From NCBI GenBank assembly GCA_945868195.1, contig CAMBLP010000007.1, positions 1 through 26,906 on the forward strand: a DNA stretch of 26,906 nt, read 5' to 3'. The position numbers and the translations under genes were made by a program. Shown here piece after piece: positions 22,147 through 26,080 of the stretch. Numbering within the stretch: the first letter of the stretch is position 1; the number at the start of each line of letters is the position of its first letter. This stretch comes from Bordetella parapertussis (GTDB taxonomy: Bacteria; Pseudomonadota; Gammaproteobacteria; Burkholderiales; Burkholderiaceae_B). Below the pieces are notes generated by a model that did no database searches, was not told where the DNA came from, and saw only the letters and a program-made list of their open reading frames with translations.

Positions 22147-22966
22147 TCACAATGGAGGCCTCTAGGGTGAACGCGTCATCTTTGAGCATTTTATAAAGGG
22201 TCTCTTGCTCGAGGAGTTGGATTTCCATCACCTCCCCATCGCGGTTTTTTGGGGTGACATGATCGGCCAAAACACATTCGCAGGTGAGTACGGCCTCCGT
22301 TTGAAAACCTTCGGGCAGTTGACGTCGCATATGTGCGATGGTTCTTAGGGGGGTGCGCGCCACAATGTCGGGCGCATCCAGACCGGCTTCTTCGTCAGAC
22401 TCGCGGACGAGCGCAAAGTCGGCGTCCTCGAGATTGCCGACAAGCCCGCCAACAAGCGTATCCCACATCCCAGGGTCTGTGGCTTTGGTCAGGGACCGTC
22501 GGGCCACCCAGAGCCGGTGGTCTGTAGACCAACCGCTGAGGTGAACTGCGCGCGTGGTCAGTCCCAGAGGGCGCATGACGCCACGCTCGATAGCGCCGAC
22601 CCGCTTCGCGGGGGTGCTGTCCTGTCCAGCAGGCACGGACCAGACATCCAGCAGCTCGTTACGCCAGCCGGGCGTGCAGCCAGCGTTTTTTAGTGTGAGG
22701 GCGATTTCGGCGAGACAGGCGTCAAGCGGGGCACCCGGCGCTAGTTTTTCCCCAAAATAGGCTGCGGTTGTGGTGAGTCTCACGCTTTTAATATTCGAGA
22801 GGGCCTGCGCCGCACCTGGAAAAAGCCAGCCACAGCGTTGGCTTCCGATCACTAAGGGGAGAGAGTCCGCGATGGGCTCTTGGGTGGCGCGCTCTAAAAA
22901 GCGATTCAAAAGAGTTTTGAGGCTATTTCGATTTGGGGAAAAGGCTGACTTTTGCATGTTGAGCAT
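22112..22966 (-). CDS. Nudix hydrolase with N-terminal DUF4743 domain
   Basis: A cytoplasmic protein of about 284 residues. The C-terminal half has a full Nudix box (about residues 174-196): G187-type start GLVGNL, then E, then RESDEEAGL, giving the REx2EE metal-binding core. The N-terminal half, with CGWLFPGAA and GWRNELLDVW, resembles the DUF4743 domain found with thiamine pyrophosphokinase-like Nudix proteins. Some eukaryotic members of this group remove damaged thiamine diphosphates; that activity here is only an analogy. ATGs at 22966 and 22957 are both possible starts; the frame opens further to a TTG at 23005. A TACAAT on the minus strand at 22987-22992 could be its -10 box. It converges on and overlaps the antiporter gene by 35 bases. 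Confidence 0.87.
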   Translation of the reverse strand: MLNMQKSAFSPNRNSLKTLLNRFLERATQEPIADSLPLVIGSQRCGWLFPGAAQALSNIKSVRLTTTAAYFGEKLAPGAPLDACLAEIALTLKNAGCTPGWRNELLDVWSVPAGQDSTPAKRVGAIERGVMRPLGLTTRAVHLSGWSTDHRLWVARRSLTKATDPGMWDTLVGGLVGNLEDADFALVRESDEEAGLDAPDIVARTPLRTIAHMRRQLPEGFQTEAVLTCECVLADHVTPKNRDGEVMEIQLLEQETLYKMLKDDAFTLEASIVITEDLWRRTSD

Positions 22967-23018
22967 ATGCCTGATGTAGAAAAGGGATTGTAGTGCAGCA
23001 TTCAAGTCGAGCCTGCGC

Positions 23019-23092
23019 TACAATAATCATCGTTTCTTTGATATACGCGCTAATCCTTGGTAGAAAATCTCGCCTACGGTTAGCCATACAAT
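23019..23092 (+). promoter_or_regulatory. two TACAATAAT sites upstream of coxB
   Basis: The nine-base sequence TACAATAAT occurs at 23019-23027 and again at 23087-23095, both on the coding strand of the cox cluster. Each contains a five-of-six match to the -10 consensus. No convincing -35 box is seen at the right distance from either. These are candidate promoters for the cox genes. The rest of the 22967-23178 gap shows nothing else recognisable. Confidence 0.3.
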
Positions 23093-23178
23093 AATTCTGC
23101 GCAAGGTGGTCTTTCAAATCGGGCATAGCCATGTATTTGATCAGATTCATCTACGTGTGTTGTGTTTTAGAGGTCAGC

Positions 23179-23214
23179 ATGAAGAAGTTGAGAGGGTGAC
23201 TGGGCGCCTGTGCC
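23179..23214 (+). other. coxB: disrupted 5' end of coxB: start codon, signal-peptide codons and in-frame TGA
   Basis: An ATG at 23179 preceded by AGAGG at ideal spacing begins MKKLRG, followed by TGA at 23197-23199. The same frame then continues LGACA into the coxB frame at 23215 without any shift. The expected residue in such a signal peptide would be Trp (TGG), one base different. So the native start and the positively charged n-region of the signal peptide are cut off from the rest of CoxB by a single stop codon. Confidence 0.85.
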
Positions 23215-24333
23215 ATGCTTTTCGCAGGCATCTCGAGTGCGCAGGTACAAGACATGCCCGGCGGGCCGCGCGTCAATCAGCTTAATCTCCCCGAGGGAGT
23301 GAACCAGATCGCGCGCGATGTGGTTTGGCTGCACTGGTTTATGTTGATTGTCTGTTTGGTGATCTTCGTGGCAGTGTTCGGCGTCATGTTTTACTCGATC
23401 TGGGCCCATCGTAAATCCCGCGGCTTTAAGCCTGCGACATTTCATGAACACATGGGTGTTGAAGTTGCCTGGACCGTGGTGCCTTTCATCATTGTGATCG
23501 CCATGGCTTTGCCTGCGACCCGTACCGTTGTGGAGATGAAGGACACGAGTGGCGCGGACTTGACTGTGAAGGTCACGGGCTACCAGTGGAAGTGGGGCTA
23601 TGAGTACATCGATGGTCCTGCTGCGGGGGTCAAGATCCTCTCTAATCTGTCCACGCCTCGTGCTCAGATTGAAAACAAGGAACCTAAAGGTCCCTTTTAT
23701 CTGATGGAAGTGGATAACCCGCTTGTGGTGCCTGTTGGTAAAAAGATTCGCGTGGCCGTGACGGCCGCAGACGTGATCCACTCTTGGATGGTGCCAGATC
23801 TGGCTGTCAAACAGGATGCGATTCCTGGCTTTGTGCGCAATACCTGGTTCCGTGCCGACAAGATCGGTGAGTACCGTGGGCAGTGTGCCGAGTTGTGCGG
23901 GAAAGACCACGCTTTCATGCCAATCGTCGTGAAGGTTGTTTCTGAGGAAGATTACGCAAAATGGTCGGCTGAGCAGAAAAAACTGTTGCTTGCCGCAGCG
24001 GATGATCCCAAAAAAGAATGGACGGCTCCTGAACTGATTTCACGTGGCGAAAAGGTCTATGCCTCTAATTGCGTAGCTTGTCACCAAGGTAGCGGCAAAG
24101 GCGTCGTAGGCGCTTTCCCAGCCTTGGATGCAAGTGCCCTGGTCATGGGACCCAAGGCCGCCAACATCGACATTTTGTTGAAAGGCAAGCCTGGTACGGC
24201 GATGGCCTCTTATGCACAGCTGAGTGATGTAGAAATTGCAGCAGTGATTACGTACACACGTGCTTCTTGGACGAATGCAGGCAAGGGTAAAGACCCTGTT
24301 GTTTCGCCTGCCAATGTCAAGGCGGCACGTTAA
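23215..24333 (+). CDS. coxB: CoxB, cytochrome c oxidase subunit II with fused cytochrome c domain
   Basis: The electron-entry subunit of aa3-type oxidase. From the ATG at 23215 it has 372 residues: a hydrophobic remnant of a signal peptide (MLFAGISSAQ), two transmembrane helices (about 39-61 and 83-100), and a periplasmic CuA domain. CuA ligands are His189, Cys224, Cys228, His232 and Met235 (CAELCGKDHAFM, with Glu226 also positioned). A C-terminal mono-haem cytochrome c has CVACH (286-290) and likely axial Met330. The original start is most likely 23179 (384 residues), interrupted by a TGA at 23197-23199. The ATG at 23215 has no clear ribosome binding site, so expression from it would depend on reinitiation or stop-codon readthrough. 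Confidence 0.9.
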   Translation: MLFAGISSAQVQDMPGGPRVNQLNLPEGVNQIARDVVWLHWFMLIVCLVIFVAVFGVMFYSIWAHRKSRGFKPATFHEHMGVEVAWTVVPFIIVIAMALPATRTVVEMKDTSGADLTVKVTGYQWKWGYEYIDGPAAGVKILSNLSTPRAQIENKEPKGPFYLMEVDNPLVVPVGKKIRVAVTAADVIHSWMVPDLAVKQDAIPGFVRNTWFRADKIGEYRGQCAELCGKDHAFMPIVVKVVSEEDYAKWSAEQKKLLLAAADDPKKEWTAPELISRGEKVYASNCVACHQGSGKGVVGAFPALDASALVMGPKAANIDILLKGKPGTAMASYAQLSDVEIAAVITYTRASWTNAGKGKDPVVSPANVKAAR

Positions 24334-24392
24334 GTTTGCACGTTGTGGGCGGTTTTGGTTCAGTCAAACAGATCAATTCATATAGATCGCTG

Positions 24393-24413
24393 CTCTCTCC
24401 TACAAAGAGAGAG
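24393..24413 (+). repeat. hairpin between coxB and coxA
   Basis: CTCTCTC (24393-24399) and GAGAGAG (24407-24413) pair around a seven-base CTACAAA loop. It lies 59 bases after the coxB stop and 26 bases before the coxA ATG, upstream of the coxA ribosome binding site. There is no following U-tract. A role in RNA processing or stabilisation of the coxA message is possible. Confidence 0.45.
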
Positions 24414-24439
24414 TGGCTTAAGTAGGATAGGAGTTCGCC

Positions 24440-26080
24440 ATGAGTAGCATTCCAGCAGATCAGATTGGTGGCCACGGCCACGGCCACGGTCACGGTCATG
24501 ACCACGATCACGCGCACGACCACGACCATCATCATGGTCCCTCGTTGCATGGGTGGCGTCGTTGGTTGTTTGCGACCAATCACAAAGACATCGGTACGAT
24601 GTATTTGATTTTTTCTTTCGTGATGTTGCTCCAAGGTGGTGCGTTAGCACTGCTGTTGCGTACGGAGCTTTTCCAGCCTGGTTTGCAGTTCTTTCGTCCG
24701 GAGCTTTTCAACCAGTTCACGACGATGCATGGCTTGATTATGGTGTTCGGCGCGATCATGCCGGCCTTTGTAGGCTTTGCCAACTGGATGGTACCTCTGC
24801 AAATTGGCGCCTCCGACATGGCGTTCGCTCGCATGAACAACTTTAGTTTCTGGTTGTTGCCGGTTGCGGCGACCCTCTTGACGGTTTCCTTCTTTGTGCC
24901 TGGTGGCGCAACAGCTGCGGGTTGGACGCTCTACGCGCCCTTGACCTCCCAGATGGGACCCGGCATGGATTTCGCGATTTTTGCGATCCACCTTATGGGT
25001 GCCTCATCGATCATGGGCGCCATCAACATCGTGGTCACGATTTTGAACATGCGCGCGCCCGGCATGACATTGATGAAGATGCCTTTGTTTTGCTGGACAT
25101 GGTTGATTACTGCGTACCTGTTGATCGCAGTGATGCCAGTGTTGGCGGCTGCGATCACCATGGTGCTGACCGACCGTCATTTCGGTACCGGCTTCTTTAA
25201 CGCAGCTGTTGGTGGTGATCCGGTCTTGTACCAGCACATTTTCTGGTTCTTCGGTCACCCCGAGGTGTACATCATGATTCTGCCGGCCTTCGGCATTGTC
25301 TCTGCCATTATTCCTGCTTTTGCTCGCAAGCAACTGTTTGGCTATGCCTCGATGGTGTATGCCACGGCTTCGATCGCCATCTTGTCGTTCATCGTCTGGG
25401 CGCACCACATGTTTGCCACGGGTATGCCTGTGACGGCGCAGTTGTATTTCATGTATGCCACGATGTTGATTTCGATCCCAACAGGCGTCAAAGTGTTTAA
25501 CTGGGTTGCCACGATGTGGCGCGGTTCTATGACGTTCGAAACGCCCATGTTGTTTGCCATTGGCTTTATCTTTGTGTTTACGATTGGTGGTTTTACGGGC
25601 TTGATCTTGTCCATGCCACCGATCGATATTCAGGTGCATGACACGTATTACGTGGTGGCGCACTTCCATTATGTGTTGGTGGCAGGTTCCTTGTTCGCCT
25701 TGTTTGCGGGCACGTATTACTGGTTGCCTAAATGGTCGGGCTACATGTATGACGAGCGCCTGGGTAAGTGGCATTTCTGGATGAGCATGATCTCGTTCAA
25801 CATCACCTTCTTCCCGATGCACTTTATGGGTCTCGCAGGGATGCCGCGTCGCTATGCGGATTATGCAGCGCAGTTCACAGATTTCCACCAGGTTGCTACC
25901 CTTGGCGCATTTTGGTTCGGCTTCGCACAGTTGCTGTTCCTCTACATCGTCTTGAAAGCCTATGCTGGCAAGGGTGAGCGCGCACCGGCCAAGCCATGGG
26001 AAGGCGCTGAGGGACTCGAGTGGACGGTTCCTTCACCTGCTCCGTTCCATACGTTTGAGACTCCACCGCAGGTTAAATAG
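24440..26080 (+). CDS. coxA: CoxA, cytochrome c oxidase subunit I, with histidine-rich N-terminus
   Basis: The catalytic haem-copper subunit of the aa3-type oxidase, 546 residues with 12 transmembrane helices. Haem a ligation is in [11 protein letters not shown]. The CuB ligands and His-Tyr cross-link site are in GHPEVY, which also carries the proton-channel Glu; HH of [10 protein letters not shown] supplies the other CuB ligands. The K-channel Lys is in [10 protein letters not shown] and the haem ligands in [14 protein letters not shown]. Residues 12-32 contain 12 histidines alternating with Gly, Asp and Ala, a likely metal-binding tail. AGGAG lies 7 bases before the ATG. Confidence 0.98.

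Follow-up and report, generated by a model that had tools for sequence, protein, structure and literature searches.

The stretch of DNA analysed here (the window, 26,906 nucleotides (nt) of Bordetella parapertussis contig CAMBLP010000007.1, whose numbering is used throughout) carries coxB, a cytochrome c oxidase gene, with an in-frame TGA as its seventh codon, and our comparison with related sequences indicates that this TGA is most likely a private, recent leucine-to-stop change or a sequence error. From ATG 23179 the coxB frame reads MKKLRG, TGA (23197-23199) and then LGACAMLFAGISSAQVQD onward to TAA (24331-24333); past the TGA it is free of stops up to that TAA, and its next in-frame ATG lies at 23215.

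That the change is private follows from codon 7 of the relatives. Our genus sample (32 genomes, the group to which the genome with the best-matching locus was assigned) has CoxB in 30 genomes, and all 30 genes show an ATG at the matching place and run stop-free through codon 7, which is TTA in 21, TTG in seven and TTT in two of them; the interrupted leader is thus no mere product of chance open frames. In G032 (94% protein identity), the closest genome, the codon is TTA, as in the nearest relatives generally, and a single change of the middle base turns it into TGA. Scanning genome contigs gave at least 598 matching stretches, from which 80 coxB loci were kept; the first ten of these have TTA or TTG, and neither TGG nor a stop occupies codon 7 in any of the 109 coxB loci compared (some of which are two loci of one genome). 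When the family was searched with an intact 385-amino acid (aa) relative as query, 249 of 268 genomes gave some match, and each of the 150 listed coxB places is free of in-frame stops (149 of them span codon 7 and one starts at residue 13). Among the best 120 of 7995 proteins matched in a large protein collection the codon-7 residue is Leu in 112, Phe in seven and Trp in none, one protein (P0109) being leaderless, and the TGA version of the leader found no match in a scan of viral contigs. To go by these alignments, the ancestral codon-7 residue is leucine. An earlier note on this DNA had taken TGG (Trp) for the codon that would restore the signal peptide; we reject Trp as the lost residue, as it is found in no relative examined. 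The note's other proposal, that a single-base nonsense change arose in a gene which is otherwise selected, fared better, given the single step from TTA and a ratio of nonsynonymous to synonymous substitution rates (dN/dS) of about 0.03.

Intact coxB genes with the same leader and with coxA downstream are present in Zwartia hollandica (L002, 89% protein identity), a Sheuella sp. metagenome-assembled genome (MAG; L006, 83%) and L091 (94%), yet unlike the window these have a leucine codon at codon 7. Locus L065 (64% identity) was considered as a second case and dismissed: its TGA, 30 nt before the anchor, precedes its own ATG, and the leaders cannot be aligned. The leaderless P0109 (373 aa, five members, one contig) is a CoxB starting at the internal Met that matches 23215, and may represent a second leader truncation, the edge of a contig, or a start that was mis-called or simply chosen in annotation. 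As an aside on naming, coxB of the MAGs labelled 'Candidatus Methylopumilus' (L004) and 'Bordetella parapertussis' (L005) is 85% and 83% identical to that of the window and thus closer to it than the named Bordetella loci (72-76%), so these labels look wrong.

The coxB frame, its product and the selection on it

The elements that matter for what follows are these:

23169..23173, plus strand: Shine-Dalgarno AGAGG of coxB, 5 nt upstream of ATG 23179 (duplex with the 16S 3' tail, -7.0 kcal/mol)
23179..23196, plus strand: coxB codons 1-6 (MKKLRG), the original start and the signal-peptide basic n-region (ATG matched in 30/30 genus genes)
23197..23199, plus strand: in-frame TGA, coxB codon 7 (genus relatives: TTA/TTG for Leu or TTT for Phe)
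23215..23217, plus strand: first in-frame ATG beyond the TGA, codon 13, a candidate restart (without a Shine-Dalgarno at useful spacing)
23215..24333, plus strand: rest of the coxB frame, 372 aa, intact, with two hydrophobic helices, a CuA domain and a C-terminal cytochrome c-like domain
24440..26080, plus strand: coxA, cytochrome c oxidase subunit I, the intact operon partner (TIGR02891, 716 bits)

The duplex energies were computed with presumed letters for the 16S 3' tail. The 372-aa product from 23215 is CoxB by NCBIfam model TIGR02866 (191.9 bits; cut-off 147.7), and its translation contains the stretches CAELCGKDHAFM and CVACH, which we take to be the CuA and haem-c ligand motifs of the family. 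What the gene lacks is a basic n-region leader in frame with the protein, as the TGA cuts MKKLRG off from the rest. The start at 23179 with its AGAGG, the MKKLRG peptide, the TGA, ATG 23215 and the intact downstream frame are thus all as the earlier note had described them, and so is its point that a product begun at 23215 would be without the basic n-region, MKKLRG lying within the lost codons 1-12.

Signs of decay are not seen beyond the stop itself. Against G032, coxB of the window has a dN of 0.035 and a dS of 1.16 (dN/dS 0.030), and the ratio ranges from 0.030 to 0.050 in the window's five pairs and from 0.018 to 0.043 in seven pairs of relatives without the window; since dS exceeds 1 in all coxB pairs these ratios are approximate, and no dS was obtained for three pairs with L083. 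At CoxB columns that are otherwise invariant, the window has one private residue, against a range of 0 to 10 in the 30 other genes. Alignment with the relative revealed no additional stop or frameshift in coxB. Hence neither relaxed selection nor further disabling changes mark the gene as a pseudogene, although such tests would miss a very recent loss, and the rest of coxB is, judged by its substitution ratios, under strong purifying selection.

Three blocks covering nearly the whole window are collinear with G032 at 78-83% nucleotide identity, and 20 of the 21 other complete window genes end at the G032 stop codon (within one residue) and without a frameshift. For the remaining gene, gltB, the G032 match is split over two loci and aligns to the last residue with no stop, gltB's own stop not being compared. 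Stops in the G032 alignments of hisG (columns 27 and 34, counted from 0) and mlaD (column 3) were left out of the count because they lie at the start of open reading frames (ORFs) taken as over-long there. A contig of low quality was thus set aside as an explanation, since the comparison with G032 showed a further break in none of the 21 other complete genes. TGA terminates seven of the 22 complete window genes (a set that includes coxB), so the genetic code is standard. As to the operon partner, coxA begins with a long stretch rich in His, Asp and Gly (24470-24538, read from the DNA), and its alignment with G032 has five gapped residues on the G032 side.

Origin of the stop and possible translation past it

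A private stop in a strongly selected gene must be either very recent or absent from the cell. By our judgement rather than by any computation, a change present in the cell, all variants taken together, is somewhat likelier than one confined to the record. The reading we favour, at roughly an even chance, sees the TGA as a recent private point mutation, a plain nonsense allele whose CoxB would be made by restart. Ribosomes would start at 23179 and halt after six residues at UGA-C, and some would restart at AUG 23215, 15 nt past the stop. The restart product would be the 372-aa CoxB minus its first 12 codons, deprived of MKKLRG and five post-stop residues (the whole basic n-region and part of the hydrophobic core) while what is likely the signal-peptidase site would remain, together with the two membrane helices and the metal sites; its level and export are probably reduced. 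Lying in the first 2% of the gene and just before an ATG, the TGA sits where a nonsense change may be most survivable. Consistent with this, in 35 of 38 sequences of solved structures the best aligned stretch does not start before residue 28 of the 385-aa form, past restart residue 13; those starting earlier are 1ar1 (residue 9), 7q21 (residue 6) and 9f5x chain 2B (residue 5). Pairing with the 16S tail is computed to be strongest (-10.5) ahead of CTG 23200, the codon right after the TGA, and extends to the base just before that codon, leaving zero spacing. CTG is moreover a rare start codon, and we regard a start there as less likely than one at ATG 23215, which, if the TGA is real, would be the likeliest source of CoxB. 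In bacteria, a ribosome that has terminated at an internal stop is able to begin again at a Met codon close by (PMC6728339). The present case resembles the ordinary 5' nonsense mutations with termination-reinitiation treated there in its early stop, the in-frame AUG 15 nt on and the intact remainder, and differs from them in that the candidate restart site of coxB is without a Shine-Dalgarno at useful spacing.

A weak aa3 oxidase could be tolerated, we envisage, owing to other terminal oxidases. Oxidase bd is found in 30 of the 32 genus genomes and ccoN of the cbb3 type scores above cut-off in 25 of 32, with both present in G032, and since related species thus have bd and mostly cbb3, a weak aa3 enzyme may be tolerated. 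One cytochrome bd subunit I homologue (G017:C40:67284-68603) has an in-frame TAA within the matched stretch.

Several points weigh against the favoured reading. In G001 (2.4 Mb, perhaps incomplete), which ranks second in closeness by protein identity, bd is present but ccoN gave no match, and a pair of spare oxidases can therefore not be taken for granted. Ahead of ATG 23215, the computed 16S-tail pairing of -7.2 falls at the distal end of the 20 nt considered, which is not a useful spacing. Export should suffer when the basic n-region is lost. The change itself is T-to-G, the substitution most typical of systematic Illumina error (PMC3295828).

The last point leads to the strongest competitor, an error of base calling or assembly, or a minor variant of the strain that entered the consensus, with leucine at codon 7 of the cell's gene and a normal coxB. 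We consider this a serious possibility that falls short of an even chance. It sits well with a strongly selected coxB in an intact operon and with the lack of any stop in the 150 listed family places. The T-to-G change also adjoins a G run, and in one study GGT, with its T read as G, is the strongest motif for systematic Illumina miscalls (PMC3295828). Here, however, the sequence is GGGTT and the changed T is the second after the G run, one base beyond the classic position, whose T right after GG (the first base of the codon) is unchanged. Nor do 21 other complete genes without frameshift or truncation look like a poor record. If the allele is real, it might instead yield no useful CoxB and be the first step of gene loss, with bd or cbb3 compensating. 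Alternative oxidases are common in the genus, the n-region is lost and the restart lacks a Shine-Dalgarno at useful spacing, all of which would fit, but coxB and coxA are otherwise undecayed and long-term selection conflicts with such a loss unless it is extremely recent, so we give it a marginal chance at best.

Read-through of a real UGA, by tRNA-Trp or another near-cognate tRNA, to give enough CoxB with a full signal peptide seems improbable to us. A hydrophobic residue would suit the h-region. The lost residue is Leu, however, so Trp read-through would insert a substitute rather than rebuild the ancestral protein, and the stop is kept in no relative examined. Read-through would yield a few percent at best. 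UGA-C is a documented inefficient stop, as the earlier note had held, whereas tRNA-Trp in E. coli misreads UGA more readily when an A comes next (PMC5289835). From the causes that note had listed, error and recent nonsense mutation with restart at 23215 both still stand, and Trp as the original residue drops out. Programmed recoding, a regulatory stop (a leader peptide with coupled restart) or reassignment of TGA in the lineage is, to our minds, very unlikely and has next to no chance. The stop does sit in a leader with unusually conserved synonymous sites in the genus and creates a six-codon ORF beside an ATG, and P0109 starts at the matching internal Met. Against this, TGA is absent from codon 7 of all 30 genus genes and from the 150 listed family places, which goes against the sharing by relatives that would have argued for recoding and led us to reject programmed read-through or recoding with a conserved stop. 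As TGA is still the normal stop of seven of 22 complete window genes, a code of the table 4 or 25 type was rejected as well, and neither alifold nor Rfam found a structured element. Recoding of prfB (mentioned in PMC5289835) likewise involves an in-frame UGA followed by C, but the prfB site is conserved in many bacteria and shifts the frame, unlike the private, in-frame TGA of coxB. A stop codon in coxB was not seen in the titles and abstracts of papers listed for coxB or subunit II, which is no proof of absence. The prfB site, like the coxB TGA, is near the gene start.

The conserved coxB leader and what the change may mean

The ribosome-binding site and the first 12 coxB codons are conserved at the DNA level between the window (23165-23214) and the 30 genus relatives. 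At fourfold codons the share of the commonest codon is 0.905 in codons 2-12 (four codons) and 0.540 beyond codon 20 (54 codons), and when the first 150 codons are scored as 114 overlapping blocks in the 30 relatives, that of codons 2-12 (ten scored codons) comes out as the most conserved. Such a pattern possibly reflects selection on translation initiation or a small-RNA target. For RNA structure the results were null: alifold on 25 distinct relatives gave -6.51 for the leader and -3.29 for shuffles (standard deviation 2.03), a value reached by 18 of 200 column shuffles, and single leader sequences fold less than their shuffles (mean z +1.46, 31 sequences). Rfam returned for 22600-24600 one sub-threshold match only (pRNA, E 0.39), which we ignored, and a promoter and terminator scan of 22900-24500 gave one and three sites with 1.7 and 1.9 expected, hence nothing usable. 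It may still be envisaged, as a long shot, that the 36-nt coxB start is an RNA-level control element and that the UGA has made a six-codon leader ORF which would set aa3 output via coupled restart at 23215.

Until the reads are checked, the finding is of little general interest. It does counsel caution, in that relatives ought to be consulted before a solitary in-frame stop in a conserved gene is put down to recoding. The conserved coxB leader may merit attention of its own. Should the change be real, the strain would offer a natural experiment on CoxB's tolerance for losing its signal-peptide n-region.
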